Origin: Thauera sedimentorum
Lineage (GTDB): Bacteria > Pseudomonadota > Gammaproteobacteria > Burkholderiales > Rhodocyclaceae
DNA: 64,000 nt
Assembly (NCBI RefSeq): GCF_014489115.1
Contig: NZ_JACTAH010000002.1
Span: 186,001-250,000 of the forward strand
Direction of reading: 5' to 3'
The notes under the pieces were generated by a model. The model had not been told where the DNA came from and did no database searches. It saw nothing but the letters and a program-made list of their open reading frames with translations. This document shows, one piece after another, positions 26,587 to 64,000 of this stretch. The position numbers were made by a program, and so were the translations under genes. The stretch's first letter is position 1; the number at the start of each line of letters is the position of its first letter.

Positions 26587-26659
26587 GTAGGAGCGGCCTT
26601 GGCCGCGATTCCTACGGCTGTTCCGCCACCGGCCGCATCGCGGCCAAGGCCGCTCCTAC
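26587..26659. repeat. REPIN-like palindromic repeat, copy 1
   Basis: GTAGGAGCGGCCTTGGCCGC at the left end and its inverse GCGGCCAAGGCCGCTCCTAC at the right end enclose about 30 bases, giving a long hairpin. The same doublet recurs at 38361, 41858 and 59169, with a single half at 34411. It lies between the converging sulfatase-family and hemerythrin genes, so it may also end both transcripts. Confidence 0.9.
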
Positions 26660-34410: not shown

Positions 34411-34434
34411 GATCGCGGCCAAGGCCGCTCCTAC
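34411..34434. repeat. Single REP half-element
   Basis: GATCGCGGCCAAGGCCGCTCCTAC matches one arm of the REPIN-like doublets; the inverse partner is missing. It lies in the 200-base gap between paaE and paaR, which contains nothing else recognisable. Confidence 0.8.
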
Positions 34435-34461: not shown

Positions 34462-35529
34462 TCAGCGCTCGTCGAAGCTGATCACCACGCGCTCGGTGAG
34501 CGGGTGGGCCTGGCAGGTCAGCACGTAGCCGGCATCCACGTCCGGCTGCTCCAGGGTGTAGTTCTTGTCCATGCGCACCTTGCCCTCCACCACCTTGGCA
34601 CGGCAGGTGCAGCACACCCCGCCCTTGCACGAGTAAGGCAGGTCCATGCCGGCGCGCAGGGCGACGTCGAGGATGGACGGGTCGCTGGCGTGGAACTCCA
34701 TCTCGCGGCGCAGGCCGTCGGCCACCACCACGATGGTGGCCTGCGGCGCGTCGCCCGCTTCCACGTGATGGGCGGGCGCGGAGTCCGGCACGCCGAAGCG
34801 TTCCAGATGGATGTGGTCGGCGCTCATGCCGGCGGCCAGCAGCGCGGACTCCACCTCGTCGATCATCGCCCCGGGGCCGCAGATGAAGGCTTCGTCGATG
34901 TCTCCGACCGGCAGCAGGGTGTCGAGGAACTGGCTCACCTTGGCTGCGTCGAGCCGGCCGTTGAACAGCGGCACTTCCTGCTCCTCGCGCGAGAACAGGT
35001 TGTACAGGGTGAAGCGCGCAAGATAGCGGTTCTTGATGTCCTCCAGCGCCTCCGCGAACATCACGCTGGCCTGGCGGCGGTTGCCATAGACCAGGGTAAA
35101 GCGGCTCTTCGGCTCGGCCGCCAGCGTGGTCTTGATCAGCGACAGGATGGGCGTGATGCCGCTGCCCGCGGCGAAGGCCACGTAGTGCTTGGCGTGCGCC
35201 GGGTCGAGCGGGGTGTGGAAGCGCCCTTCCGGGGTCATCACCTCGAGCACGTCGCCGGCCTTGATGCCGCCGTTGGCCCAGGAGGAGAAGCGCCCGCCGG
35301 CGATCTTCTTGATCGCCACGCGCAGCTCACCGTCACCGACGCCGGCGCAGATCGAGTAGGAGCGGCGCACTTCCTCGCCATCCACGCTCGCCTTGATGTT
35401 GAGGTGCTGGCCCTGCACGAAGCGGTACTCGTCGGCCAGCTCGGCCGGCACGTCGAAACGCAGGCTCACCGAGTCGGCGGTCTCGCGCCGCACTTCGGCC
35501 ACTTTCAGGGGATGGAATTTCGGGGTCAT
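34462..35529 (-). CDS. paaE: Phenylacetyl-CoA 1,2-epoxidase, reductase subunit PaaE
   Basis: Reductase that feeds electrons from NADPH to the PaaABC(D) di-iron oxygenase. 355 residues from ATG 35529. An FAD-binding barrel has RRSYSICAG, an NADP domain has AAGSGITPILS and FICGPGAMI, and a C-terminal plant-type [2Fe-2S] domain has CKGGVCCTC plus a downstream Cys in LTCQAHP. This order (FAD - NADP - ferredoxin) is the PaaE pattern. It is last in the paaABCDE run, 38 bases after paaD. Confidence 0.95.
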   Translation of the reverse strand: MTPKFHPLKVAEVRRETADSVSLRFDVPAELADEYRFVQGQHLNIKASVDGEEVRRSYSICAGVGDGELRVAIKKIAGGRFSSWANGGIKAGDVLEVMTPEGRFHTPLDPAHAKHYVAFAAGSGITPILSLIKTTLAAEPKSRFTLVYGNRRQASVMFAEALEDIKNRYLARFTLYNLFSREEQEVPLFNGRLDAAKVSQFLDTLLPVGDIDEAFICGPGAMIDEVESALLAAGMSADHIHLERFGVPDSAPAHHVEAGDAPQATIVVVADGLRREMEFHASDPSILDVALRAGMDLPYSCKGGVCCTCRAKVVEGKVRMDKNYTLEQPDVDAGYVLTCQAHPLTERVVISFDER

Positions 35530-38360: not shown

Positions 38361-38431
38361 GTAGGAGCGGGCTTGCCCGCGATGCGGCCTTTGCAGAACC
38401 GCCGCCGCATCGCGGCCAAGGCCGCTCCTAC
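38361..38431. repeat. REPIN-like palindromic repeat, copy 2
   Basis: GTAGGAGCGGGCTTGCCCGC and ATCGCGGCCAAGGCCGCTCCTAC in inverse arrangement, between paaK and paaA. The left arm is the GGGCTTGCCC variant, the right arm the GGCCAAGGCC variant. Confidence 0.9.
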
Positions 38432-41857: not shown

Positions 41858-41933
41858 GTAGGAGCGGCCTTGGCCGCGATGCAACGGGTTCGGAGGCCAA
41901 TCGCCGCAGGATCGCGGCCAAGGCCGCTCCTAC
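41858..41933. repeat. REPIN-like palindromic repeat, copy 3
   Basis: GTAGGAGCGGCCTTGGCCGC and GCGGCCAAGGCCGCTCCTAC, inverse to each other, between paaG and paaH. The right end touches the paaG C-terminal codons. Confidence 0.9.
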
Positions 41934-45606: not shown

Positions 45607-46059
45607 TCAGGCCCGGCCTGTCAGCAAGTCGGGGCGATGTTTCTCCAACCATGCCCGGGTATCGGCCAGCAGCAGGGCCGCCTGTTTGCAGCACTCATCT
45701 ACCGCGCCATCGCTGACCGGGTCACCTTCGTAATCACTGAGATTGCGTTGCTTGCGCAAGGCATCCAGAACGATCACCCGGTCCTGCGACAGATCGAGCG
45801 TCTTCGGTAGAACCTGCAAGGCCGTCTGGTGATGGCCCGGCTGACTTGTGGAGGTGCGGTAGCCATTGGCCCACAGGCCGATCATCGCGCACTGCATGAT
45901 GGCCTTGTAGGCCGCATCAAAGCGGTTTTCTGCGCTCAGAGCGGCAATCCCGGCATCGACCAGATTGCGTTCGGCGGCTGCCAGCAGGCGTTGCACACCG
46001 GCAGCACTCGGCTCAAAGTTCTGCAGCTTGTGAATCGCCAGCAAGTTTTCCAAGGTCAT
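45607..46059 (-). CDS. HEPN-domain protein (likely RNase toxin of a HEPN/MNT pair)
   Basis: A 150-residue all-helical protein. The HEPN signature RNLSDYEG gives Arg105 and Tyr110, an R-X4-Y form instead of the usual R-X4-6-H; in characterised pairs a nearby Tyr is the site nucleotidylated by the MNT partner. It starts 47 bases inside the MNT gene, so translation is coupled. No membrane or signal region. By family it is a ribonuclease toxin; the missing His leaves activity open. Confidence 0.78.
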   Translation of the reverse strand: MTLENLLAIHKLQNFEPSAAGVQRLLAAAERNLVDAGIAALSAENRFDAAYKAIMQCAMIGLWANGYRTSTSQPGHHQTALQVLPKTLDLSQDRVIVLDALRKQRNLSDYEGDPVSDGAVDECCKQAALLLADTRAWLEKHRPDLLTGRA

Positions 46060-46621
46060 GCTCGGTTCCGATCACCCAGAGTTTGGGCTTGGCCAGCAGT
46101 TCGCGAGTGAAGGCATCACCCGCCTCGATACGCCGGCGGACCTCATCCGCGGTGTAGATCACCGGGTTGATCTCGCGCTGCAGGATGTCCTGAGTCGGGT
46201 ACAGCGCCTTCACCACCTCAGCAAAGGCCGGCGTGCCGATCACCATGATATCGACATCACTGCCCGCCTGCTCCTCACCGCGCGCCATCGAGCCAAAAAC
46301 AAAGGCCAGCAAGATCTCATCAGCCAGCGGCCGCAAGGCATCGGCCAGCACATCCACCAGGCCGCAGGTCTTGCGGAACAGACCTGCCAACTCCGGGAAC
46401 ACAGGGCAGGCACGGTTGGCCTGGTAGCGCACCTGATTGCCCTGCTCCTGGCGCAGCAGCAGGCCGGCCTGCGCCAGGCGCGTCAACTCCTTGTGCAGGG
46501 TTCCGGCGTTGGTACCGGTCAGGCGCGCCAGCTCCCGCACGTAATAGCTTGAATCGGGATGCAGCAGCAGCAGGCTCAATACCCGCTGGCGATAGGTTCC
46601 GAAGAGTAGCTCCATCAGCAT
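46013..46621 (-). CDS. wHTH-MNT nucleotidyltransferase (likely antitoxin and autorepressor)
   Basis: 202 residues from ATG 46621 (ATG 46615 also possible). Residues 1-70 form a winged helix with YYVRELARLTGTNAGTLHKELTRL; residues about 95-200 form a minimal nucleotidyltransferase with FGSMARG (110-115) and SDVD (121-124). Family knowledge: MNT proteins neutralise HEPN toxins by adding AMP. The fused HTH together with the palindrome just upstream argues for self-repression. It is first in the pair and overlaps the HEPN gene by 47 bases. Confidence 0.8.
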   Translation of the reverse strand: MLMELLFGTYRQRVLSLLLLHPDSSYYVRELARLTGTNAGTLHKELTRLAQAGLLLRQEQGNQVRYQANRACPVFPELAGLFRKTCGLVDVLADALRPLADEILLAFVFGSMARGEEQAGSDVDIMVIGTPAFAEVVKALYPTQDILQREINPVIYTADEVRRRIEAGDAFTRELLAKPKLWVIGTEHDLGKLAGDSQAAEL

Positions 46622-46623
46622 GC

Positions 46624-46644
46624 TCGTAGCTCCATTTGCTACGA
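46624..46644. promoter_or_regulatory. Palindrome upstream of the MNT/HEPN pair
   Basis: TCGTAGC, seven bases, GCTACGA: a perfect 7-bp inverted repeat ending at the MNT start. A second, imperfect GTAGC/CTACG pair follows at about 46646-46663. Likely binding sites for the winged-helix domain of the first gene. Confidence 0.6.
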
Positions 46645-46980
46645 CTGTAGCTTTATCGACTACGCCATGCAAGATAAAGACAGGACTACACGGTTTCAGC
46701 CCCTGAGCTTGGCCTCTGGCCCTCTGGAAGGCGGGCTGGCTAAAACTCCGAGCACAGCGCAGGGCCAACCAGAAGTGGCACTCCGACAGCTATCGAACCA
46801 AAGGAGACATTTGACCTTCAACGGGGTGAAGGTCGGCAATTTGGTGGCCTGCGGTCGTTAGCTAGCATTCGCCCATGCCCTCGTCCTACTGGAAAACAAG
46901 AATTTAGGGGAGTTCAGGATGGCGGGGGCCGGCTACTCTGCCCCCCGTCGAGCCCGCACTTTGTACCCTGGTCGCACGGG
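46645..46980. other. Gap between the MNT gene and the PD-(D/E)XK gene
   Basis: No convincing gene. An open frame at 46667-46861 (64 codons, plus strand) has no recognisable domain and no good ribosome binding site, and may be a degraded remnant. A short hairpin (CCTTCAACGGGGTGAAGG, near 46812-46829) is present. This may be a junction between two separately acquired modules. Confidence 0.45.
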
Positions 46981-47965: not shown

Positions 47966-50227
47966 TCACGCCGCCGCCTGCAGGAGGATGCGCCGCTTCA
48001 ACTCATCCGGAAGGTGGATGGCGAACCATGGCACGTCGGAACTGGCGTCCCCTGACTGCGGCGGCACCTTTGAGATGAGGAAGTGGAACTTGCGCAGATG
48101 CACCGTCACGCGGTTGTCGCTACGGAGTTCTCGGTCGCCGCAATACTTCAGGTTTGCCCGGTCGGATGTGTTCGGCGACTTGCCTGAGAACACTTGGTTG
48201 ATGGTGCCCCTCTTCGTCAGGGAGCGACCCTGCTCAACCATGTCGCCGACGAGGAAAACGTCACACGTGGCATCCGGGGCGCCAGCCAGCAGCCGCCCAA
48301 GGGCCACGCTGATAGCCATGCGCTCCGTCGCATCCTCCACTGTGCCGAATTGCATTTCGTCAATGAGATGGGCGCACACATCAGCCACGGATACCGCCTC
48401 GAAGAGTTTGTTGCGGGACGAATTGGCACGTTTGTCGAGATAGCGCTCCGGGTCCACCTCGTGTGCGGCAAGCTCCACGTAGCGGGTACGCAGATGCTGC
48501 AGGAAGCGGTCGAACACAATGCGGTTGTGTGCTACGGCAGGTTTTCCGACATGCGCGGCGCCAGGGAACAGCCATTCTGCCGTGGTGACCTCATCCAGCT
48601 TGATGCCCATCACGCTGCGCCGCGTCGGCTGGAGCCGGTCAGCCAGGATGAAGCGGCGGCGCCACTCCTTCAGCGGCTGGCCCCGCGAACTCTCGAGTTC
48701 GCTTCGGATGAAGCTCTCGTGTTCGACATAGCCCTCGAAGGCGGTCTTCACGTCCTGCCGCACATACACGCGGCAGTAGCCAAGGTAGCTGGCCTTGTAG
48801 CCGTAGAAGCGGGCGCGCTGCTGAATGTTGTCGGCGTTCCCGACGCCAAGTGGTCGCGGCATGTAGGTCACGGTGAGGCCCTTTACTGTATAGCCTCGGT
48901 CCAGCTTCTGCCCGCCCACCAGAATCCAGTACTCGTTATCGCCCCAGCGGATGGCAGCAGCCCCCTTGCCCGTCGAGTTGACCTCCCGAACCCTGACAAT
49001 GTGGAGCACCTCGTCCATCTTTGTGAACAGGTCGGATAGGCTCGGCAGCGCCTCACCCACGGTCCTCTGCAGGTCCACGTGGGCGTCGGTGAACTCGGCC
49101 ATGAGGGCGTCGCGCAGCGCCCGCACTGGCAGCCGAGACCGCCACTCGCCGATGAGTTGAGTCAGCCAAGCGATGTACTGTGTGTGCGGTGCGGTCTGCT
49201 GCGACGGATGCACCATCATCGAGCGATTAGAGTTTTGCTCAGCCAGCGCATGGGCGCAGGCGCCGAGCAGGTATACCTTCAGGGCGGACACGAGCGAGGG
49301 TGGGGCGGCTGGGTGGGAGGCGGCGGTCGCCACCGCCTCGGCATCAGGGATGACTTTCGCGTAGGGTGCGCCTGGCTGGAATAGCGTCTGTCCGCCAGTG
49401 TAGCCCCGTCCGGGCGTTAGCGTCTCAGCGAAGTCGGGCGACAAGATGTCGGTGAGGCCGATGAGCAAGGGCGCCTGCGGCGTGGCGGTGTATTGCAGGT
49501 AGGTGTGATGTGGCAGCACCGCCTTGAGGTTCAGCACCTCGCGGTAGTTCGCGCTGAGGGCGTTCTGGCGCGTCTTCTGGTTTTTGGCGGCGAAGTTGTT
49601 GAGGCTGGCCTGGTCGGCCTCGTCGTCGATAACGAGGCATGGAATGCCCTGCAGGATGGCGGACAGGGCAGACAAGCACTCCACGAGATTGGCCAACCGC
49701 TGGTGCTGCTTAAGTACGGTGACGAGAATGGTCTTCTTCTTGCGCGGGCTGAGCGCCGGTGAGCGCCAGCGCTGGAGCAGTCCGCGCAGCGCCTCGAACT
49801 CGCTGTTGTCTCGGGCAGGGTTATCAATGAGCACCCACGGCTGTCCGGGGTTGTCCGGCGATACGCCTAGGTCCTGCTTCAGACGCTCTTGCGATTGCGA
49901 CTTCAGGTTGTCGATTGTACCGGCGATGAGGATGACCAGGCCGTAGCCGTTGTCGCGCGCCAAGGCGGTCAGTGTCGTAAAGGACAGGGTCTTGCCGCTC
50001 TGCACGTAGCCGACCACGAGACCGGTACCGCTGCCAGCCGGCTCCATCGGCGGCACGCAGCGGCCGAGGATGCGGTGGGCCTCGTAGGCCACTGTGTGCA
50101 ACGCCTCCTCGTCAGCCTCCCCCGCCAGCGCCTTGCGCCGCAGGAACTCCTCGGTCACTTCGCGCTGGCACGGCTCCCAGCGCAGGCCCGGCTCGATACT
50201 GCGCAACTCTTCGATGGTGATGGTCAT
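47966..50227 (-). CDS. Z1-domain helicase-like ATPase
   Basis: A 753-residue superfamily-II-like protein with the Z1 signature. Walker A GYVQSGKT (73-80), AGTIDNLKSQ, Walker B DDEAD (201-205), and YTATPQAPLL (246 onward) belong to the first lobe. The second lobe has GGQKLDRGYTVKGLTV and QQRARFYGYK with its Arg finger-like motif. Z1 proteins accompany GHKL ATPases and nucleases in predicted restriction systems and are thought to be DNA translocases. Overlaps the ATPase gene by four bases. Confidence 0.85.
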   Translation of the reverse strand: MTITIEELRSIEPGLRWEPCQREVTEEFLRRKALAGEADEEALHTVAYEAHRILGRCVPPMEPAGSGTGLVVGYVQSGKTLSFTTLTALARDNGYGLVILIAGTIDNLKSQSQERLKQDLGVSPDNPGQPWVLIDNPARDNSEFEALRGLLQRWRSPALSPRKKKTILVTVLKQHQRLANLVECLSALSAILQGIPCLVIDDEADQASLNNFAAKNQKTRQNALSANYREVLNLKAVLPHHTYLQYTATPQAPLLIGLTDILSPDFAETLTPGRGYTGGQTLFQPGAPYAKVIPDAEAVATAASHPAAPPSLVSALKVYLLGACAHALAEQNSNRSMMVHPSQQTAPHTQYIAWLTQLIGEWRSRLPVRALRDALMAEFTDAHVDLQRTVGEALPSLSDLFTKMDEVLHIVRVREVNSTGKGAAAIRWGDNEYWILVGGQKLDRGYTVKGLTVTYMPRPLGVGNADNIQQRARFYGYKASYLGYCRVYVRQDVKTAFEGYVEHESFIRSELESSRGQPLKEWRRRFILADRLQPTRRSVMGIKLDEVTTAEWLFPGAAHVGKPAVAHNRIVFDRFLQHLRTRYVELAAHEVDPERYLDKRANSSRNKLFEAVSVADVCAHLIDEMQFGTVEDATERMAISVALGRLLAGAPDATCDVFLVGDMVEQGRSLTKRGTINQVFSGKSPNTSDRANLKYCGDRELRSDNRVTVHLRKFHFLISKVPPQSGDASSDVPWFAIHLPDELKRRILLQAAA

Positions 50228-51798
50228 GGCAGATTGCCTGCGAGGGACTCCCGCAGCAGTTGGTTGATGTAGTGCAGCGGCGTGGCGGAGGAGACTCCGC
50301 CGCGCTGCAGGCGCGCCAGCGCCACCGCGATGGCGGCGGCGAAGCGCAAGATGAGTTCAATGTTCTCGTTGTGCGGGCCGATGAAACGTTCAACAAACGG
50401 GTGAGCAAGGGAGACGTCCACCGTCAGACGGTGCTCGTCATGTTCGCTGAACAACTGGGGGACAGTCTCGTCCGCGAAGCGAAGCCACTCGTCCACGTCC
50501 GAGTCCATGGTCATGCGCAGATTGATGGTCCAACGGTGGTCGTCCACGAGGATGTTCACCGCGCGCTGAGCGACCGGGTCGGCAGCGAGCCGATTTGGCG
50601 TACTGGGCACTATCTGCTCCAGTGCCGACGAGTCTGGCTCGGCGCTTAACACGGGCCCGGCAGTGCTCTCCAAAGCAGCGGACACGGTGGCGGTCGCCTG
50701 CTTCGCCGCCGGCTGCACGGCGGCCCGGGTGAGCCGAGCCCGGTGCTGCTCCGCTTGGCGCAGCAGGTTAAGAGGCTCCTCCTCTAACGCGTCGTGCAGA
50801 CGCTCGAGCATGGAGTGCTCCAACTCGTGCCACTTGAAGCCGTCCTTAGTGTGTGAGACCTCGAAGCCCTCGACATGTAGTTCGCCGAACAGGCGCTGCA
50901 TGCGGAAGCTGTTTAGCTTGCCGAAGATCTCCAGCGGGCGGAAAGTCTCGTCGTCGCTCCCGACAATCAGGCGGTTCCGGCGGAACAGCGCGAAGCCGGC
51001 GTGCGTCGTCGAACCCTCAGCGCGAAGGGCGGCGAAACCGTGAATGCGCCGGCCCTCGCCGAAATTCACGTCGATGTCCTTGCGCCATTCGACTGATTCG
51101 GCGTCGAGGGCGGATGCGGGCGGCGCGCTCAACACAGCCGGCTCTGGATGGGCGAGCGGCTCGGCCTCGTCGCCCCACAGAATTTCGAGGTCGCCGCGGC
51201 GCTGGAAGACGCGGTAGATACTGGCGAGGTGGTCCCGCAACTTCTTCTGCGTCCGCGCCTGAGGGAACTTTGCGCCGAGCCGCTCCAGCGTGATGATGGT
51301 GTAATGCTCACTGGGAGGTGCTGGCCGCTCTTCGACTTCCAGCATTTCGGTTCGGTTGCTGACGATGGCTTCAATGTCGAAGCGGACCGTGCGCTCCACG
51401 GGGTCGCCCAGCGCCTTGGTGCGCACGCTCCACAGGTCAGAAAACCAGCATGCCGCCGCCTTCATGCCCATTCCGAATTCGGACAGGCCCGTGCGGTCGG
51501 GCGGAATCTCGGCCGGCCGGAAGGCGCGGGCGAAGTCGGCAAGCGCTATGCCCGCCGCGTTGTCACTGATTTCCAGTCGGGAGTGCTCTGGGTCCAGTCC
51601 GATGCGCACCCTTAACTTGAAGTCCGGCCCCTCCACTGCCCGAAGGGCATCCGCGCTCGCGAGGTAGCTCTGGACGCTGTTGTCGACGAACTCGGCTAGC
51701 GCGAACCACGCCTTATAGTTGAGATGCTTTAGGACCGAGAGCATGGTGACTTCCGGTCGGATATTGATGGCGGGAATCACATGCTCGGCTACTCTCAT
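50224..51798 (-). CDS. GHKL (MORC/MutL/HSP90-like) ATPase
   Basis: A 524-residue protein with an N-terminal Bergerat ATP-binding fold: N box with Glu36, Asp39 and Asn40 ([11 protein letters not shown]), G1 with Asp79 and Gly83 (ISDNAAGI), and G2 [13 protein letters not shown] second S5-like/transducer domain and a variable C-terminus follow. This is the MORC-like type found in bacterial restriction-modification neighbourhoods, not a two-component kinase (no His-acceptor domain). Overlaps the genes on both sides by four bases. Probably a dimerising DNA clamp. Confidence 0.82.
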
Positions 51799-53135
51799 GA
51801 CAGAGTTTGTTCAAGGAGTGTTTGGGGTTCGGGGGAGGGCTCTGCAAATGTTCGCGCGCAGGCCAGCAGGGCGCGTGCGACCTTCTCAACAACCTTTGCA
51901 TTGACCGCATTACCAAGGGCGGAGAAGGCCCGCCCCTGTGGCTCTGGTAGGTGCTTTAGGTCGCCTAGACTCTGGAGTTTTGCGCACTCGCGTGGCGTCA
52001 TGTAGCGCTTCTGCCAGCCAATGATGGGCACCTGAGTGTCTGTCATTGCCACCAGGCTGGGCGAGGTGGTGCGGCGCTTGACACGGACACCTGAGGCGCG
52101 GAACTGGATAACGTACTTCCACAGGTCTCTCTCCCCGCCTTGGACGTTCCACTCGAACTTTTGATGGGACGAGATGAAGGACTTGACCGAAGGCAGCCAT
52201 GGGTCAATCCAATGGCGGTTATCCGCGTAGAACTTGCGGTTGGCGCGGATAAAGTCCTTCTTCCACTTAGGGAACTGTTCCTGCGCCGTACGGGCGTGGC
52301 TCGGCAGGGCCTTCCACTGATCGTCGAGCGGCAGGCCCGCCAGTGGTCTGCCGTGGGTTCCCCGATACGCTCCCAAGGCCTCCGCACCTCCGCGCGCCCT
52401 CTCGGCGAATGGGGTGGTGTCCTCAAACGGGTAGGTGGCGCCGAACTCCATGGACCAGATGGGGAACGACGGCAGGGCCACCTCCGCCGGGGACAGTTCA
52501 AGGAAGCGGTTCCACGCTGTCAGGCATACTCGGGTCTGCTCGGCCAGCACCTTCGCATCGGCCGGCGAATCCTCCAGCACGTCGGTGATGTCTGTGGCGT
52601 GGCTTTCGCGCTCCGGCCAAACGAAGCCGTCCAATGATTCGAGGCGGCCGACGATGTATGCGCGCTCCCGCACCTGCGGGATGCCGAAGTGGTGCGGGGA
52701 AAACTTCCGCTCGGTCACGCAGTACCCTAGGGCCTCGAGGTCCTGCTTGATACGCGCGTAGGTCTTGCCCTCGTCGTGCTTGAGCAGGTTGGGCACGTTC
52801 TCGAGGATGAATTGGCGCGGGCGCTTCTCCTGCAGGATGGCGACTACGTCGAAGAACAACGTCCCTTGGCGAGAGCACTTAAAACCCGCTTGGTCGCCGG
52901 CCTTGGAGAAGGCTTGGCACGGAAAACCGGCGCACAGGAGGTCATGGTCCGGCACCTCGGAGGGGATGACCTTGCGGATGTCGCCTTCCGGCTTGAGGCC
53001 GAAATTGTCCTCGTAGACTTTCTGCAGGTGCGACTGTATCTCGGCGGCGAAGACGCACTCGCCCCCGAGCTTCTCGAGTGCGACATGGAAGCCCCCTAGT
53101 CCCGCGAACAAGTCTATGAATCTGAACGCTGCCAT
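51795..53135 (-). CDS. C5-cytosine DNA methyltransferase
   Basis: A 446-residue Dcm-type methylase. Motif [11 protein letters not shown] (8-17), the catalytic Cys73 in [11 protein letters not shown] (IV), Glu112 in LENV (VI), [10 protein letters not shown] (VIII) and GNAVNAKVV (X) are all present. A long target-recognition region (about 190-370) lies between VIII and IX. It is first in the operon, so self-protection is made first. I start at ATG 53135 ([10 protein letters not shown]); the in-frame ATG at 53156 has no family match. Target sequence unknown. Confidence 0.92.
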
Positions 53136-53589
53136 AGAAATAATGGCGCAGCCCATCCGGCGGGCCGGGCGGACTTGCGCCTTATGCTGCCTTTTTGATG
53201 AATTATGCCATGACAGCGCCTTAAAGAAGGTCTGCCGCAGCCTGCATAGTACACAGGGCAGATGCGGTGTGGCTCACCCGGTGATGCCGCGGCAGCGAGG
53301 CCGACTTGTCAAGTATGTGGGGACGTTAGGTAGTTGCGGGGCCCGAGGTTGAGCCCAAGCTTGCCGTTCAACTACCCAGCGGGAACTGATTGTGAGTTGC
53401 CGTGGCATGCACGTTCCCCGAAAACTCTCTTCCAACTCTACCCTCTAAGTTCGACGGGCTAACGGGATGGACCATTTATGTTCCTTGTGGGCTGCGGAGT
53501 GGACCTTCACCACCGACACTCTCCCCGTCAGGCGAACCCGGCGCCTGCCCCAAGTGTCTATCGGACACCCCCGACCGGAGACACCGATC
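53136..53589. other. Gap between the methylase and the glutathione peroxidase gene
   Basis: About 450 bases of visibly lower GC with no believable gene. A candidate minus-strand -10 for the defence operon (CATAAT at 53207-53202) lies 70 bases ahead of the methylase. Direct evidence of an attachment site or flanking repeat was not found. This is the likely right boundary of the island. Confidence 0.45.
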
Positions 53590-55167: not shown

Positions 55168-55252
55168 CCGCGCAGTTTCCAATTTTTACAAAGTCGTCCC
55201 CGGATGCGCCAGGACACGCGGCGCCCGGTGACGGCTTTTGTCCGTCGCGCGC

Positions 55253-57049
55253 ATGAGTCTCAAATCCGTCCTTCACCGGCAGGCCAGCCGCCTGCTGCTC
55301 GCCCTCGCCGTCGCGGTGCTCGCCGGCTGTGCCAGCGCGCCGCCCAAGCCCGCGGAGCTCGCCCGCGGCGACTACCGCTACGCGCGGGACTACATCTCCT
55401 GGCTGATCGAGCGCGAGATGCGCGCCAACGACATCACCGGCCTGTCGGTCGGCCTGGTGGACGGCCAGCAGCTGGTGTGGGCCGAGGGCTTCGGCTTCGA
55501 GGACGTGGAGAAGGCCGTCGCGGCCAGCGCGCACACTCGCTACCGCCTGGGTTCGATTGCCAAAGTGCTCACCGCCACCGCGGCGATGCAGCTGGCCGAG
55601 CAGGGGCGCATGGACATCGACCGTCCGCTGGCCGACTACCTGCCCGGTTTCGCCATCCGCAGCCGCTTCCCCGGCGCCGGCCCGGTGACCCCGCGCAACA
55701 TCATGCACCACCACTCCGGCCTGCCCTCCAACCACCTCAACGGCATGCTGGGCGGCGAGCCGGCGCCGATCGCGTCGCTGGTCGGCGCGGTGCGCGAGGA
55801 CTACCTCGCCTACCCGCCGGACTTCATCTTCTCCTACTCCAACCTGGCCTACACCCTGCTCGGCGCCAGCATCGAGCACATGGCCGGCATGCCCTTCGCG
55901 CGCCACATGCAGCGCAGCCTGTTCGAGCCGCTGGGCATGCGCGATTCGTCCTTCGAGTCGCGCCCGGCACTCAAGGAATACCGCAAGGGCCAGGCGGTGG
56001 AGCCGATCGCGCTGCGCGACCTGCCCTCCGGCGGGCTGGTGTCCTCGGTGGAGGACATCAGCCGCTTCATGCGCATGGTGCTGGCCGAAGGCCGCGCCGG
56101 GGACCGGCAGATCATCCGCCCCGAGACGCTCGCCGAGATGCTGCGCCCGCAGAACGAGCACGTGGCGCTGGACCTCGACATGCGCATCGGCCTGGGCTGG
56201 ATGTTCAACGGACTGGGCGTGCATCACGGCGGCCCGGTGCCCAACCACGGCGGCACCCTGCTCGACTCGCACAGCCTGATGGCCCTGCTACCCGAGCACG
56301 ACCTGGGCGTGGTGGTGATGGCCAACAGCGGCAGCGCGCAGGCCAGCGTGAAGAAGATCGTCACCGAGCTGCTCACCCTGGCGCTGGAAGCCAAGACCGG
56401 CCTGCGCCCGCCGCCGGAGCCCGCCCCGGTGGCCAGCCGCGCCACCGACGCCGCTGCCGCGGCCGACCTGAGCGATTACGAAGCCTGGTACGACTCCATG
56501 GTCGGCCTGGTGCGGGTCAATGCCGGCGACACCAGCCTGGAGGCCGAAGCCCTCGGCCACACCTTCCAGCTCGACCCGCTCGCGGGCGGCCGCTTCGGCC
56601 TGCGCTACAAGCTGTTCGGCCTGATCCCGGTGAGCGTGGCGCTGTTCGACGACCTGCGCGTGTCGATGACCAACATCGGCGAGCACGAAGTGCTGGTCGG
56701 CCATATCGCCGGCCATCGCATGCTGGTCGGCCAGCGCCTGGAACCCTCGCCCATCCCGCGCAAGCTGCTCGACTACGTGGGTGAATACGAGATCGTCGGC
56801 ACCCCGCCCGGCGGCATGGTGCCGGACCGCCTGGCGCTGCGCCTGGAAGGCGGCCTGCTGGTGGGCGAATGCAGCTTCTCGCAGATGCCCGGCTTCGTGC
56901 TGCGCGCCGCGCTGCAGCCGATCTCCGAGACGGAGGCGATCATCTCCGGGCTGGGCACCGGCAAGGGCGAGACGCTGCGCGTCGTCGGCGGCGAAGGCGA
57001 GCGCCGCCTGCTCTATTCGGGCCTCGAACTGCGCCGCAAGGGCGACTGA
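55253..57049 (+). CDS. Serine-hydrolase lipoprotein (class C beta-lactamase fold)
   Basis: A 598-residue penicillin-binding-protein-like hydrolase. The N-terminus has a lipoprotein signal ending LAGC (Cys near residue 26). The SxxK motif is GSIAKVLT, the YxN motif is FSYSNLAY, and the third motif is near NHGGTLLDS. About 200 C-terminal residues beyond the catalytic domain look like a lipocalin-type beta-barrel. I use ATG 55253; five residues earlier is another ATG. It ends 10 bases before the resorcinol-type gene, so it may be part of that operon. Substrate unknown. Confidence 0.85.
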
Positions 57050-57058
57050 GCGCCGGCC

Positions 57059-57994
57059 ATGAAGCGCGTCCTCGTCGTTCATTACTCGCAGTCCGGCCAG
57101 CTCGGCCAGATCGCCGGCAACATCGCCGCGCCGCTGCGCGCGGCCGGCGTGGAGGTGGTGGAGGAGATCCTGCGCCCGCGCGAGCCCTACCCCTTCCCCT
57201 GGCCGTTCTTCGACTTCCTCGACGCCTTCCCCGAGACCTTCCGCCTCGACCCGCCGCCCAACCATCCGCCGGCGGCCGACCCGGACACGCCCTTCGACCT
57301 GGTCATCCTCGCCTACCAGGTGTGGTTCCTGTCGCCGGCCATGCCGATGACCGCCTTCCTGCAAAGCGCCGAAGGCCGCCGCCTGGTCGCTGGCCGCCCG
57401 GTGGTCACCGTGGTGGCCTGCCGCAACATGTGGCTGGGCGCGCAGGAAAAGATGGCAAAGCTGGTGGCGGATGCCGGCGGGCGGCTGATCGACCACATCG
57501 CCTTCACCGACGACGCCCACCCGCTGGCCACCTTCATCACCACGCCGCGCTGGGTGCTCACCGGCCGGCGCGACCGTTTCCTCGGCCTGCCGCCGGCGGG
57601 CGTGGCGCCCGCGGAGATCGCCGGCGCCGAGCGCTTCGGCCGTGCGCTGGCCGAGGCGCTGGCGCGCGACGAGGAGCGCAGCGGCCGTCCGCTGCTCACC
57701 GGCTTGCGCGCGGTGCGCGTGAACCCGCGCCTGATCGTCTCCGAACGCGCCGGGCAGCGCGCCTTCCGGGTGTGGTCCGGCTTCATCCGCCTGTTCGGCA
57801 AGCGCGGCCAGTGGCGCCGCCGCCCGGTGCTGGCGCTGTTCGTCACCTACCTGCTGCTGCTGATCGTCACGGTGGTACCCTTGAGCCTTTTGCTCCAGCG
57901 CGCATTCGCGCCGCTGCTTCGCCCCCGGCTGGACGCCCTGCGCGCGCAGTACGAACAGCCCTCCGGCTCGGGGACGGAACGCCTGCCCTCATGA
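57059..57994 (+). CDS. Flavodoxin-fold protein of the dialkylresorcinol condensing (DarA-like) type
   Basis: A 311-residue protein. The N-terminus [16 protein letters not shown] is a flavodoxin-type FMN-binding loop; [23 protein letters not shown] is the second FMN loop. A strongly hydrophobic segment near the C-terminus ([21 protein letters not shown]) suggests membrane attachment. Proteins of this kind are annotated as dialkylresorcinol condensing enzymes beside DarB-type ketosynthases; what this one does here is inferred. It overlaps the KAS III gene by four bases. Confidence 0.72.
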
Positions 57995-59142
57995 CCGTCC
58001 GCAACGTCTACATCACCGCCACCGCCGCCGCCCTGCCCAATGCCCCTGTGGGCAACGAGGACATCGAAGCGGTCCTCGGCCTCGTCGGCAACCGCCCCTC
58101 GCGCGCGCGCCGCATCGTGCTGCGCAACAACGGCATCCAGCGCCGCCACTACGCCATCGACCCGGCCACCGGTGCGCCCACCCACAGCAACGCCCAGCTC
58201 ACCGCCGAAGCGGTGCGCGCGCTGGCCGGCGACGGCTTTGCGCTGGACGACATCGAAGCGCTGGTGTGCGGCACCTCGCTGCCCGACCAGCTGATGCCCG
58301 GCCACGGCGTCATGGTGCATGGCGAACTCGGCAACCCCGCCTGTGAGGTGGTGAGCACCGCCGGCATCTGCCTGGCCGGCATGACCGCGCTCAAGCACGC
58401 CTGGCTGTCGGTGGCCGCCGGCGCCACGCGCAACGCGGTGGCCACCGGCTCCGAAGGGTGCTCGCCGGTGCTGCGCGGCGCGCATTTCGCCGCCGAGAAC
58501 GAAGCCCGCGTGGCAGAGCTGGAAAGCCACCCGGAGATCGCCTTCGAGAAGGACTTCCTGCGCTGGATGCTGTCCGACGGCGCCGGCGCGGTGCTGCTGC
58601 AGGACGCGCCGCGCAGGCAGGGCCGCAGCCTGCGCATCGACTGGATCGAGCTGTCCTCGCAGGCCCATGTGCTACCCACCTGCATGTATGCGGGCGCCGA
58701 ACGCAATGAAGACGGCCAGCTCAGCGGCTGGGCGCGTCACACCCCGTCCGAGTGGGCGGCGCAGTCGATCTTTGCCATCAAGCAGGACGTCCGCCTGCTC
58801 AACGAGAACGTGGTGCGCCACACCCTGGAGATCCCGCTCGCCCGGGTGATCGCCAAACGCGGCCTGCACGCGGCGGACATCGACTGGTTCCTGCCGCACA
58901 TGTCCTCGCACTACTTCCGCCAGCCCATCCACGACGCGCTGGCGGGGCTCGGCCTGGCGATTCCCTTCGAGCGCTGGTTCACCAACCTCGCCGACAAGGG
59001 CAACACCGGCTCGGCGTCCATCTTCATCATGCTCGACGAACTCGCCCGCAGCGGCCGGCTCGCCGCCGGCCAGCGCCTGCTGTGCTTCGTCCCCGAGAGC
59101 GGGCGCTTCTCCAGCGCCTTCATGCATCTGACGGTGGTCTAG
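57991..59142 (+). CDS. Beta-ketoacyl-ACP synthase III-like enzyme (DarB-like)
   Basis: 383-residue thiolase-fold condensing enzyme. Catalytic triad: Cys in [12 protein letters not shown], His in [10 protein letters not shown], Asn in [13 protein letters not shown]. It is longer than FabH (about 320) and has an insertion around residues 170-230, a feature of secondary-metabolic members. Together with the preceding flavodoxin-like protein it resembles the DarA/DarB pair that joins two acyl chains into a resorcinol ring. It ends before a REPIN-like repeat. Confidence 0.85.
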
Positions 59143-59168
59143 CACCGTGCGGCACACGGCACAGAACC

Positions 59169-59243
59169 GTAGGAGCGGGCTTGCCCGCGATGCGGCGTCC
59201 TTTGTACCCGGAAGCGCCGCATCGCGGCCAAGGCCGCTCCTAC
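59169..59243. repeat. REPIN-like palindromic repeat, copy 4
   Basis: GTAGGAGCGGGCTTGCCCGC and its inverse-type partner GCGGCCAAGGCCGCTCCTAC enclose about 30 bases, in the gap that splits the biosynthetic cluster. The left arm matches copy 2. Confidence 0.9.
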
Positions 59244-59291
59244 AGGGGGCGCCGGGGCATGTTTCATCAACCGGGCAGCACGAGCCTAGCC

Positions 59292-59696
59292 ATGGATATT
59301 GAGAACGTCCCGCAGGAAGGCAACGCCACCCTCGGCGGCCACCGCAAGGCGATGTACGCGCGCGGCGCGGACGGCCGTCTGGCGCCGGTGGCCTACGCCG
59401 GCTGGGAGGTGGAGGAGATCGTCACCCGTCAGGCGGTGGAGGAACTCGACCGCCTGGCCGCCGACGCCTTGACCCGGGTGCGCGCCGGCTCGGCCTCGCC
59501 GCTGGAATACCACATGTACCGCGCACGCATGGACGACACCCTGCTCGCGCAGACCACCGGCCTGTGGCGCTGGCGGGTACGCCGCCACCTGCGCCCCGAG
59601 GTCTTCCGCCGCCTCTCGCCCACCCTGCTGGCGCGCTACGCCGCCGCGCTGGGGCTCGGCGTCGACCAGCTCACCACCGTCCCGCCGCAAGCATGA
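59292..59696 (+). CDS. Uncharacterised 134-residue protein of the cluster
   Basis: I do not recognise this gene. Predicted to be mostly helical and soluble, with no signal peptide and no Cys; central part rich in charged residues (EVEEIVTRQAVEELDRL, SPLEYHMYRARMDDTLLAQ), then RRHLRPEVFRRLSP and a hydrophobic end. It overlaps the BtrH-domain gene by four bases (ATGA), so it is translated with it and likely acts with it. Start ATG 59292, about 50 bases after the repeat. Confidence 0.7.
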   Translation: MDIENVPQEGNATLGGHRKAMYARGADGRLAPVAYAGWEVEEIVTRQAVEELDRLAADALTRVRAGSASPLEYHMYRARMDDTLLAQTTGLWRWRVRRHLRPEVFRRLSPTLLARYAAALGLGVDQLTTVPPQA

Positions 59697-60687
59697 GCGA
59701 CTTCCAGCATCAGCACGCCTCCCACTGCGAAAGCGGGGTGATGTCGGCCATCGTGCGCCACTACGGCCTGCCGCTGTCCGAGCCGATGGCCTTCGGGCTG
59801 GCCTCCGCGCTGTCCTTCGCCTGGCTGCCTTTCGTCAAGCTCGGCGGACTGCCGCTGGTGGCCTACCGCATGCCGCCGCGCGCCATCATCCGCGGCCTGC
59901 AGAAGCCGCTCGGCCTGCGCATGCGCACCGAGACCTTCCGCGACCCGGCACGCGGCGAGGCGCGCCTGCAGGAGCTGCTGGACGCCGGCCGCGTGGTCGG
60001 CCTGCAGACCTCGGTGTTCTGGCTGCCCTACTTCCCGCAGGACATGCGCTTCCACTTCAACGCCCACAACGTGCTGGCCTACGGGCGGGATGCGGACAGC
60101 GGCGACTACCTGCTCTCCGACCCGGTGTTCGAGGAGCCGATGCGCTGCGCCCCGGCCGACCTCGCCCGCGCCCGCTTCGCCCGCGGCGTGCTGGCGCCCA
60201 AGGGCCTGCTCTACTACCCGGACGGCCAGCCCGCCGAGCCCGACTGGAACAAGGTAATCCCCGCGGCCATCCGCAAGACGGTGCGCGTGATGCTGCGCAC
60301 CCCGGTGCCCATCGTCGGCACCCGCGCCATCGAGCGCGTGGCGCGCGCAGTCGAGCGCCTGCCGGCGGCCGGCGACACCCGCCAGAGCCTGCTCTTCGTC
60401 GGCCACCTGGTGCGCATGCAGGAAGAGATCGGCACCGGCGGCGGCGGTTTCCGCTTCATGTACGCCTCCTTCCTGGAAGAAGCCGCCACCCTCGCCTCGC
60501 GCCCCGCGCTGGCCGAGCAGGCCGCCCGCCTGGTGGAGATCGGCGACGGCTGGCGCGAGTTCGCGCTGGCCGCCGCGCGCATGATCCGCGGGCGCGACGC
60601 CTTCGAGCCCGCCGCGCTCGCCGCCCTGCTGCGCCGCCAGGCCGCCGACGAGCGCGCCTTCTTCGGCGCGCTGGAAAAAGCGCTCGC

Positions 60688-60691
<4 letters not shown>
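59693..60691 (+). CDS. BtrH N-terminal-domain acyltransferase-like protein
   Basis: 332 residues. The first 140 resemble the BtrH N-terminal (papain-like) fold: HASHCESGVMSAIVRHYG carries a candidate nucleophile Cys, QTSVFWLPYFP follows, and FHFNAHNVLAYGRD holds a candidate His. BtrH of butirosin synthesis moves an acyl group from a carrier protein to an amine. Here, next to a dedicated ACP and ketosynthase, transfer of an acyl chain is a reasonable inference. C-terminal part helical. Overlaps neighbours by four bases on both sides. Confidence 0.75.
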
Positions 60692-61614
<923 letters not shown>

Positions 61615-61616
61615 GG

Positions 61617-62864
61617 ATGGCCATGGCACATCGACTGCTCGTCCGCCTCGCCGCCCTGTGGCAGAAGGAAACCCTGGCCCTGCTGCGCGACCGCCACGGT
61701 CTGGCGGCGCTGTTCCTGATGCCGATGATCTTCATCCTGGTGATGTCGCTGGCCCTGCGCGACGCCTTCGACGCCGGCGCGGCCACCGATCTGGGCTACG
61801 CCATCGTCGACCTCGACGACAGCCCCACATCGCGCCAGTACGCCGAACGCCTGCGCCGCCTGCTCACCTTCCGCGACAGCGGCACGCTGGCCGACGAGGC
61901 CGCCGCCCGGCAAGCCCTGCGCAGCGGCGAGATCGGCTTCGCGCTGGTGCTGCCCGCCGGCTTCGCCGCCGCCCAGCCTGACGGCGCCCAGGCGCGCGGC
62001 ACCGAGCGCCCTGCGCTGCGCCTGCTGGTCGACCCGGTGGTGCCGCAGGCGCTGCAGACCGCCTTCCGCCTGCACGCCGAGGCCGAACTCGGCCGCTTCC
62101 AGGCCGAGCTGCTGATGCACCGCCTGGGCCGCGCGCTGATGATCCCCGAACTGCAGAGCCTCGATCCGGCGGCCCACGCGCTGCCGGTCGCGGTGATCGC
62201 CGCGGCGGGGCGCGGTGGCGAGGACAGGGCCATGCCCAGCTCGGTGCAGCAGAGCGTGCCGGCCTGGCTGATCTTCTCGATGTTCTTCGTCGTCATCCCA
62301 CTCTCTGCGGTATTCATCGCCGAACGCCAGCACGGCACCCTGCAGCGCCTCGCGAGCCAGCAGGTGCCCTTCGGCCTGATCCTCGCCGGCAAGCTGCTGC
62401 CCTTCTTCGTGGTGAACCAGATCCAGGCGGTGCTGATGGTGCTGGTCGGCCGCCACCTGGTGCCGCTGGCCGGCGGCGAGGCCCTCGTCCTGCCCGCGGG
62501 CGCCGCGGCATGGGCGGCGCTGTGGCTGATCTCCGCCGCCGCCAGCCTGGCCGCGGTGGGCTGGGCGCTGCTGATCGCCAGCCTGGCGCGCACCACCGAG
62601 CAGGCCACGGTGATCGGCGGCGTCGGCAACATCCTGATGGGCGCGATTGGCGGCATCATGGTGCCCGCCTTCTTCATGCCCGACTTCATGCAGCAACTGG
62701 CCCAGCTCTCGCCCATGGCCTGGGCGCTGGAGGGCTTCCACCGCGTGCTGCTGCAACACGGCGGCCTCGGCGACGTGCTCGGCCCCGCCGCCGCCCTGCT
62801 CGGCTTTGCGCTGGCCGCGCTCGGCGTGGCCGTCCTGATGAATCTGCGCTCCCGCTCCCGATGA
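61617..62864 (+). CDS. ABC-2 type permease
   Basis: A 415-residue membrane protein: one N-terminal helix, a large extracytoplasmic domain (about 50-210), then five helices, the layout of ABC-2/YhhJ-like permeases. Loop GQ-like region ERQHGTLQRLASQQVPFGLILAGK is the family's coupling segment. Start ATG 61617 or 61623. It ends overlapping the ACP start by four bases (ATGA). Confidence 0.9.
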   Translation: MAMAHRLLVRLAALWQKETLALLRDRHGLAALFLMPMIFILVMSLALRDAFDAGAATDLGYAIVDLDDSPTSRQYAERLRRLLTFRDSGTLADEAAARQALRSGEIGFALVLPAGFAAAQPDGAQARGTERPALRLLVDPVVPQALQTAFRLHAEAELGRFQAELLMHRLGRALMIPELQSLDPAAHALPVAVIAAAGRGGEDRAMPSSVQQSVPAWLIFSMFFVVIPLSAVFIAERQHGTLQRLASQQVPFGLILAGKLLPFFVVNQIQAVLMVLVGRHLVPLAGGEALVLPAGAAAWAALWLISAAASLAAVGWALLIASLARTTEQATVIGGVGNILMGAIGGIMVPAFFMPDFMQQLAQLSPMAWALEGFHRVLLQHGGLGDVLGPAAALLGFALAALGVAVLMNLRSRSR

Positions 62865-63124
62865 CCCTCAAAGACGAACTCAAGCAGCTCATCGTCGACG
62901 CCTGCGACCGCGACTGCGACCCCGCAACGATCACCGACGACGAAATCCTCTTCGGCCCCGAGGCGCCGCTCGCCCTCGACTCGCTCGACGCCCTGCAGCT
63001 CTCCATGGCCATCCAGAAGAAGTACGGCCTGCGCCTGACCGACAGCAAGGACACCCGCCGCATCCTCGCCAGCGTCGGCGCGCTGGCCGAGCATCTGGAA
63101 GCCTTCCTGGCTGCGCGCGCGTGA
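62861..63124 (+). CDS. Acyl carrier protein
   Basis: An 87-residue carrier protein, with the phosphopantetheine attachment Ser in LALDSLDALQLS (near residue 43) and acidic helices around it. It is overlapped with the permease gene and 10 bases before the ketosynthase, so it is a dedicated carrier, not the fatty acid ACP. The DSLD motif is the standard modification site. Confidence 0.9.
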   Translation: MTLKDELKQLIVDACDRDCDPATITDDEILFGPEAPLALDSLDALQLSMAIQKKYGLRLTDSKDTRRILASVGALAEHLEAFLAARA

Positions 63125-63134
63125 AGGCAATGCA

Positions 63135-64000
63135 ATGAGGCCGGTGAAGATCGCCGCGCTCGGCCACTGCTCGGCGCTCGGGCTCGACGCGACCGCCGCC
63201 GGCGCCGCGCTGGCCTCGCGCCTCGACGCGCCGCCGGCCCCACCGCCCGCATGCCGTCGGGTGCTGGACCACGACTGGCCGTGGTTCGCCCTGCCGCTGG
63301 CCGAAACGGGATGGCGCGCACGTGCCGAGGCCGCGCTGCGCGGCGTGGGTCGCGAGCTGCGCCGCGCCCTGCCGGCCGCGCTGTGGGCCGACACCCCGCT
63401 CTTCCTCGCCTCGTCCTCGCTGCAGGCCGGCGCGCTGGAAGAGGCCGCACGCGCCAGCGGACGCATCGAGCTGCCGGTGGATGCCGCCGCCTTCGCGCAG
63501 GACGTGGCCGGCTGGCTCGGCCTGCACGGCACGCCCTGGGTGTTCTCCACCACCTGCACCTCCGGCTTCGCCGCGCTGGATGCGGCCGCAGGGCTGATCG
63601 CCAGCGGCGGGATCGAGCGCGCCGTCGTGCTCGGCGTGGAACTGACCAACGACATCAGCATCGCCGGCTTCTCCGGCCTCGGCCTGCTTGCCGAAGCCGG
63701 CGCCCCGGCCGGCAGCGGGCTGGTGCTGGGCGAAGCGGTGGCCGGCGTGCTGCTGTGCGCCGCGGACGACGCCACCATCGCCGCCGACAGCGGCTGGCGC
63801 ATCGCCGGCTGCGCGCTGGGAGTGGACGGCCATTCGCCCACCGGCCCCGCGCCCGACGGCGCGCGCATCGCCGAACTGCTCGCCCGCACGCTGCAGACCG
63901 CCGGCCTCGAACCCCGCGACATCGACCTGCTCAAGCCTCACCGCGGCGGGCTGGCCGCCACCGACGAGCCGGAAGCGCGCGCGCTGGCCGCGGTCTTCGG
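63135..64000 (+). CDS. Beta-ketoacyl synthase (FabF/KAS type), partial at right edge
   Basis: Open from ATG 63135 to the end of the window, 288 codons without a stop. Nucleophile Cys lies in FSTTCTSGFAALDAA; the first catalytic-His region appears as LLKPHRGGLAATDEPEARA near the edge. The N-terminal half is short and divergent compared with FabF, as in ketosynthases of aryl polyene and related clusters. The second His and the C-terminus lie off the window. It follows the ACP gene by 10 bases. Confidence 0.82.
   Translation, partial: MRPVKIAALGHCSALGLDATAAGAALASRLDAPPAPPPACRRVLDHDWPWFALPLAETGWRARAEAALRGVGRELRRALPAALWADTPLFLASSSLQAGALEEAARASGRIELPVDAAAFAQDVAGWLGLHGTPWVFSTTCTSGFAALDAAAGLIASGGIERAVVLGVELTNDISIAGFSGLGLLAEAGAPAGSGLVLGEAVAGVLLCAADDATIAADSGWRIAGCALGVDGHSPTGPAPDGARIAELLARTLQTAGLEPRDIDLLKPHRGGLAATDEPEARALAAVF

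Follow-up and report, generated by a model that had tools for sequence, protein, structure and literature searches.

The closest described counterpart of the gene cluster considered here is the dar locus of Azoarcus sp. BH72, in which darK, J, C, I, H, G, F, E, D, B and A correspond to azo0283 to azo0293 (Table 1 of PMC3949708). According to the same source, the DAR proteins of BH72 yield a dialkylresorcinol (DAR) when produced in E. coli; in BH72, free DAR went undetected and an ester pigment was detected, and mass spectrometry led to the proposal that this pigment, arcuflavin, is an ester of DAR and a xanthomonadin-like polyene. We analyzed a 64,000-nucleotide stretch of the Thauera sedimentorum genome (hereafter the window; G000:C2:186001-250000 in our numbering, from a genome of 3,955,289 bases in four contigs) and found at its right end a nine-gene cluster that most likely supplies DAR, one half of an arcuflavin-type pigment, a reading to which we assign a probability of about 0.85. 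This identification is based on the match in gene order, the scores above the NCBIfam cut-offs (DarB, DarG_fam and DarH_acyl), the polyene locus of the same genome, and the co-occurrence of the respective genes across genomes. The cluster type has been described before, and the present locus is an ordinary member of it.

The dar cluster and the unlinked polyene locus

Open reading frame (ORF) calls and the genome sequence together delineate nine plus-strand genes packed as one unit, from position 57059 to the window-equivalent position 64726, where the cluster ends; the end of darJ and the whole of darK lie past the window edge (64000) and were read from the genome contig. The genes are listed below under the names of PMC3949708, which clash in part with those of NCBIfam: the NCBIfam names DarG and DarH denote darD and darE, respectively, whereas in the tabulated locus of PMC3949708 darG is antitoxin-like and darH is PilT-like. 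The relatives referred to throughout are the best 80 loci from a scan for DarE, the BtrH-like protein, that gave at least 588 confirmed matches; loci cut by contig ends were retained.

57059..57994, plus strand: darA, DAR aromatase by position and published synteny; match in 72 of the 80 relatives; no profile or PDB support
57991..59142, plus strand: darB, StlD/DarB ketosynthase (DAR cyclase), by NCBIfam NF005293, PDB 5gk0 and invariant residues; match in 79 relatives
59169..59243, no strand: inverted repeat resembling repetitive extragenic palindromic (REP) elements, in the darB-darD gap; 29-nt arms, 93% complementary
59292..59696, plus strand: darD (NCBIfam 'DarG family'), NF053536 at 162 bits against a cut-off of 70; match in 79 relatives
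59693..60691, plus strand: darE (NCBIfam 'BtrH-related acyltransferase DarH'), by NF053550, BtrH_N, DUF4872, an invariant triad and an AF2 model
60688..61614, plus strand: darF, ABC exporter ATPase, Pfam ABC_tran at 105.8 bits; match in 76 relatives
61617..62864, plus strand: darI, ABC-2 exporter permease, Pfam ABC2_membrane_3 at 118.1 bits; match in 74 relatives
62861..63124, plus strand: darC, acyl carrier protein (ACP), Pfam PP-binding at 25.2 bits against a cut-off of 20.8; match in 71 relatives
63135..64190 (L009:9135-10190), plus strand: darJ, ketosynthase, Pfam ketoacyl-synt and Ketoacyl-synt_C; match in 68 relatives
window-equivalent 64187-64726 (L009:10187-10726, outside the window), plus strand: darK, half-ketosynthase-like by profile-profile comparison; match in 22 relatives

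Five of the eight junctions are 4-base overlaps (darA/darB, darD/BtrH, BtrH/ATPase, permease/ACP and ketosynthase/small protein), in line with the tight packing from 57059 on that had been reported in the original prediction, a reading of the window made from its letters and ORFs; the three remaining gaps measure 149 bases (darB/darD), 2 bases (ATPase/permease) and 10 bases (ACP/ketosynthase). A promoter and terminator scan returned nothing above chance. The resulting order, darA-darB-darD-BtrH-ATPase-permease-ACP-ketosynthase-small protein, is the arcuflavin-type order darA-B-D-E-F-I-C-J-K as judged against Table 1 of PMC3949708. All of darA, B, D, E, the ATPase, the permease, the ACP and the ketosynthase are present in 63 of the 80 relatives, and 18 of the 80 have the ATPase-permease-ACP-ketosynthase block on the other strand.

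The second half of the inferred pathway appears to be encoded elsewhere in the genome. A genome search with the PF13723 profile gave a single match (C2:1068530-1069051), located in a polyene locus (C2:1057826-1078922) that shares its contig with the dar cluster, at a distance of about 807 kb. Ten ORFs of this locus were compared with Pfam and showed a Trp_halogenase domain (halogenase-like flavoprotein), an FkbO/Hyg5 chorismatase, MipA, an acyltransferase, a short-chain reductase, Ketoacyl-synt_2, a ketosynthase, Lip_A_acyltrans and AMP-binding; the one ORF of the ten that had no Pfam match is a 152-residue protein in the place of the dehydratase. Inspection of the translations by eye additionally suggested an antiporter, a polysaccharide deacetylase and an MMPL-like exporter. 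By annotation, the Pfam families of the locus match arcA, B, C, D, H, J, K, R and T. The genome that contains the window thus holds the xanthomonadin-like polyene genes expected of an arcuflavin-type system. The original prediction was to be given up if the genes on the right showed a standard aryl polyene or lipid A pathway or if the product was a known dialkylresorcinol, and the outcome largely goes against it: the flank on the right contributes one small gene and no further pathway, and a xanthomonadin/arcuflavin-type polyene locus is present elsewhere in the genome.

Among the proteins encoded in the cluster, DarB belongs to the StlD/DarB family (613.7 bits under NF005293, cut-off 450); its nearest solved relative is the ketosynthase StlD (PDB 5gk0, E 1.4e-153), and Cys127, His303 and Asn338 are invariant in the alignment of 75 sequences (75/75). 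Under the stricter NCBIfam resorcinol_DarB model (type 'exception'), the score is 502.7 bits against a cut-off of 550, so that membership is claimed for the StlD/DarB subfamily only. The resorcinol condensation by a DarA/DarB pair that had been predicted originally agrees with NF005293 and with the dar locus tabulated in PMC3949708; likewise, the BtrH-like, ATPase, permease, ACP and ketosynthase labels all passed Pfam cut-offs. The assignment of DarA is provisional and is based on its place, the matching gene in the relatives and the published table; the originally predicted label of a DarA-like flavodoxin fold drew no profile support, with no Pfam or NCBIfam family at E <=0.1, no Pfam family up to E 10, and no meaningful relative in a PDB sequence search.

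DarD falls below the cut-off of the flexirubin_DarG equivalog (111.4 bits against 170). In its AF2 model (mean pLDDT 87.6), a beta hairpin and one long helix are predicted together with several short helices that form a bundle, and 7 of 46 members show a weak match to HTH_26 (best E 0.012). The fold is perhaps Cro/C1-like; the protein could be either a regulator or an adaptor. The PDB sequence matches of both DarD and DarE had a coiled-coil, designed or repeat protein look and were not used. Neither the DarC ACP (best score 58.3 against 70) nor DarJ passes an NCBIfam cut-off. In DarJ, Cys141 and His304 are kept in 68/68 relatives (L018-L075 among them), and the second active-site histidine (position 269) is His in 34/68, including the window, and Gln in the other 34/68, suggesting that half of the family may not act as ordinary chain-elongating ketosynthases.

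The small protein DarK is poorly conserved and is barely detected by single-profile searches: Pfam returned nothing relevant in 18 members, and the best PDB hit is a weak match to a ketoacyl-synthase N domain (7f28, E 0.017). Profile comparison gave a probability of 89.6 with ArcJ over the whole length (E 2.2e-7) and of 51.7 with DarJ (E 2.2e-5), where ArcJ and DarJ reached only 20.7 with each other and the darA, darB, BtrH and darD controls stayed at or below 0.2 (all E values being for one-pair comparisons); on the strength of the two matches, DarK looks like a half-ketosynthase.

DarE as a candidate ester synthase

In the pathway that we propose, DarB would form a ring by condensing two chains of fatty-acid origin, and DarA would aromatize this ring to a 2,5-dialkylresorcinol, two steps that follow the annotation in the table of PMC3949708 and general knowledge of DarA and DarB. 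DarC, DarJ and DarK most likely serve to make or carry one chain of the two, and the unlinked polyene locus would make a hydroxybenzoate-primed aryl polyene on a carrier. DarE would then accept the polyene acyl group on Cys12 and transfer it to a phenolic hydroxyl of the resorcinol, yielding the ester, and the DarF/DarI exporter would carry its cargo, the resorcinol or else the completed ester, across the inner boundary of the cell and away from the cytoplasm. The original prediction had envisaged that the BtrH-type protein transfers a carrier-bound chain and that export follows, which appears to be the likely logic of the system.

For the esterification step, the enzyme is only proposed or left unassigned in the accounts of PMC3992019 and PMC3949708. 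DarE scores 460.8 bits against NF053550 (cut-off 300) and combines a BtrH_N domain (163.2 bits, cut-off 29.7) with DUF4872 (175.1 bits, cut-off 28). Cys12, His125 and Asp143 are invariant in 81/81 sequences, as are, among others, Gln105, Asn123 and Asn126. The two domains, the score above the model cut-off and the conserved Cys-His-Asp triad jointly identify DarE as a putative BtrH-type acyltransferase. Papain-like enzymes are expected to show a catalytic cysteine on a helix, a histidine on a strand and an aspartate after a strand, in that order. In the AF2 model of DarE (mean pLDDT 93.7), a helix begins at Cys12 and a strand at His125, and Asp143 directly follows the next strand, so that the predicted order of elements is papain-like. 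As for the precedent, PMC10318531 assigns BtrH to the papain-like superfamily and describes it as an ACP:aminoglycoside acyltransferase, and PMC8430323 names it as the acyltransferase of butirosin; among the matches listed, PMC3949708 was the only source in which BtrH appears alongside resorcinol, aryl polyene or flexirubin. Because of the triad, the predicted papain-like order and the BtrH precedent, we lean toward DarE as the enzyme that links the carrier-bound polyene to DAR through an ester bond, with somewhat better than even confidence.

An alternative is that DarE is a protease or amidase and that the ester is formed by another ligase, for example one similar to FlxW, the ligase-like protein proposed for this step in flexirubin biosynthesis (PMC3992019). 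The proximity of BtrH_N to the C39 and C70 peptidase families described in PMC10318531 is compatible with such a role, but the two-domain DarE exceeds the cut-off of the DarH acyltransferase model by about 160 bits, none of the nine genes resembles a peptide precursor, and BtrH itself is treated as an acyltransferase in PMC10318531 and PMC8430323, so that we regard this alternative as improbable.

If the assignment of DarE is correct, it provides a single-gene candidate for the enzyme that joins the two halves of the pigment and, possibly, a genome marker for hybrid pigments, a result of modest importance. A more inclusive proposal is that papain-fold, BtrH-type DarE is the ester synthase for the separately encoded aryl polyene and dialkylresorcinol halves, that its presence marks the makers of hybrid pigments among polyene-bearing bacteria, that DarJ and DarK, a ketosynthase and a half-ketosynthase, work as a pair for the resorcinol side only, and that DarD is no enzyme but a helix-turn-helix protein of the Cro/C1 type; this combination as a whole is tentative and, in our estimate, has clearly less than an even chance of being correct.

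Co-occurrence of DarE, DarB and the polyene marker

The distribution of the three components was assessed in a class sample of 369 genomes (400 requested) and an order sample of 150 genomes, with the genome of the window counted in both. In the class sample, DarB was detected over the cut-off in 21 genomes, DarE in 18 and PF13723 in 87, and 18/18 DarE genomes also contain DarB over the cut-off and PF13723 (Fisher p 1e-12 for DarE versus PF13723, with relatedness ignored). BtrH-like matches below the cut-off in three genomes (G208, G296 and G332) were excluded from the DarE count; DarB-like matches below the cut-off occurred in four (G093, G214, G272 and G495), none of which is among the DarE or PF13723 genomes. 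DarE over the cut-off was found in 4 genomes of the order sample, all included in the 45 that have PF13723. Among the 80 named DarE genomes, PF13723 is present in 73 (46/46 of a first, hand-picked set and 27/34 of the remainder). This co-occurrence fits a role of DarE as the putative esterifying enzyme. In three loci (L161, L162 and L163), darA/darB pairs lie in DNA with a local GC content of 37-40%, in genomes of the same class that contain the polyene marker, and no DarE, DarD or exporter match is present nearby.

The same data bear on the possibility that free dialkylresorcinol is made and exported, with DarE adding another acyl group or acting elsewhere and the polyene pathway being independent. 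Free dialkylresorcinol is the product of darABC in Pseudomonas chlororaphis, darA/darB pairs that are not accompanied by DarE exist, 7 of the 80 named DarE genomes have no polyene marker, exporter genes accompany most of the clusters (ATPase 76/80, permease 74/80), and the dar and polyene loci are unlinked in the genome analyzed here. Against this stand the 18/18 and 73/80 co-occurrence and Azoarcus, where, for the same locus, the ester pigment was seen and free DAR was undetected, as reported in PMC3949708. On balance, the production of free DAR appears unlikely, about as much so as the peptidase role of DarE.

Several observations weigh against the arcuflavin-type assignment or the role given to DarE within it. 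What was read directly from the sequences analyzed here comprises the genes with their order, the conserved residues, the polyene locus and the co-occurrence; for this organism, the pathway built on them is a prediction. DarA is placed by position, the mutants of BH72 mentioned in the available part of PMC3949708 are in arcK and arcT, with no dar mutant mentioned there, and Table 1 of that work labels DarE a 'BtrH-like peptidase'; for the flexirubin ester, FlxW is proposed instead (PMC3992019). PF13723 is a marker of polyene loci, not proof, and the gene-by-gene check covered the genome of the window. The seven DarE genomes in which PF13723 has no match (L013, L017, L031, L057, L060, L073 and L085) are represented by small or fragmented metagenome assemblies, 1.3 to 3.2 Mb in size, and incompleteness may explain the missing marker. 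Three of the 21 DarB genomes (G299, G392 and G415) have PF13723 and lack DarE over the cut-off; the surroundings of their darA/darB genes, out to about 8 kb, gave no match to darD, DarE or an exporter.

Finally, we know of no tested function for darD, darJ or darK, and the cluster could conceivably encode a novel route to some other, unrelated acyl or aryl lipid, as the original prediction left open. We consider this highly improbable and dropped it, given the complete synteny with the locus tabulated in PMC3949708, the named NCBIfam families and the partner polyene locus; by the same token, the original statement that the gene combination matches no known product does not hold.

Neighboring features and relation to known systems

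Extension to the right, as had been advised originally, completed the ketosynthase gene (end at 64190) and added the single small gene darK; beyond it, inspection by eye revealed no recognized pathway genes in the flank, where we found an AraC-like regulator, a minus-strand VOC-like protein, a DUF3079-like small protein, an FmdE-like protein and an RND exporter (all named by eye). On the left, a gene for a beta-lactamase-fold serine hydrolase with a lipoprotein-like start (55238-57049, by eye) ends 9 bases upstream of darA. It was rejected as a cluster member and is probably a neighbor outside the pathway because a match is present in only 1 of the 80 relatives, Pseudothauera lacus.

The REP-like palindrome of the darB-darD gap (GTAGGAGCGG ... 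CCGCTCCTAC) recurs across the window (59169-59243, 26587-26659, 34417-34434, 35356-35365, 38361-38431 and 41858-41933), and a further copy lies just right of the window, after darK. Two minus-strand regions contain genes of a different kind. At 45607-46768, two adjacent genes match the PADLOC candidate defense pair PDC-M05A and PDC-M05B (E 2.9e-80 and 6e-70). At 47966-53156, a three-gene block encodes a helicase-like protein (Helicase_II, MzaC-like), an ATPase and a cytosine-C5 DNA methyltransferase; the middle protein has the look of a histidine-kinase-type ATPase by eye and no PADLOC match, and the block is possibly a restriction or defense system.

The nearest named relative of the dar cluster among the matches listed, in a search that may omit records very near the genome of the window, is that of Pseudothauera lacus D20 (L012; Zoogloeaceae), in which all nine genes are present and collinear with the window; the two aligned blocks that together cover the cluster are about 83% identical at the DNA level. 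The repeat between darB and darD is absent in this relative, where the stretch between the same aligned blocks measures 18 bases, versus 166 in the window, and the REP-like repeat at 59169..59243 is a probable insertion outside the pathway.

Compared by the printed table of PMC3949708, the window and Azoarcus sp. BH72 share the dar genes and their arrangement, and in both genomes the polyene genes are unlinked to the dar locus. The two loci differ in that the one of Azoarcus includes a PilT/antitoxin-like pair (its own darG and darH), whereas in the window a REP-like repeat lies between darB and darD; in addition, one locus of polyene genes was found in the genome of the window, compared to two loci in BH72. 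The flexirubin dar genes of Bacteroidota share with the window DarA and DarB and, by the account in PMC3992019, a polyene ester of DAR as the product, but in the window DarD and DarB miss the respective flexirubin_DarG and resorcinol_DarB cut-offs given above. With BtrH of the butirosin pathway, DarE shares the BtrH_N domain, the papain-like superfamily and, in the role predicted here, carrier-dependent acyl transfer; the acceptor would differ, being an aminoglycoside amine for BtrH and, in the proposed reaction, a lipid phenolic hydroxyl for DarE.

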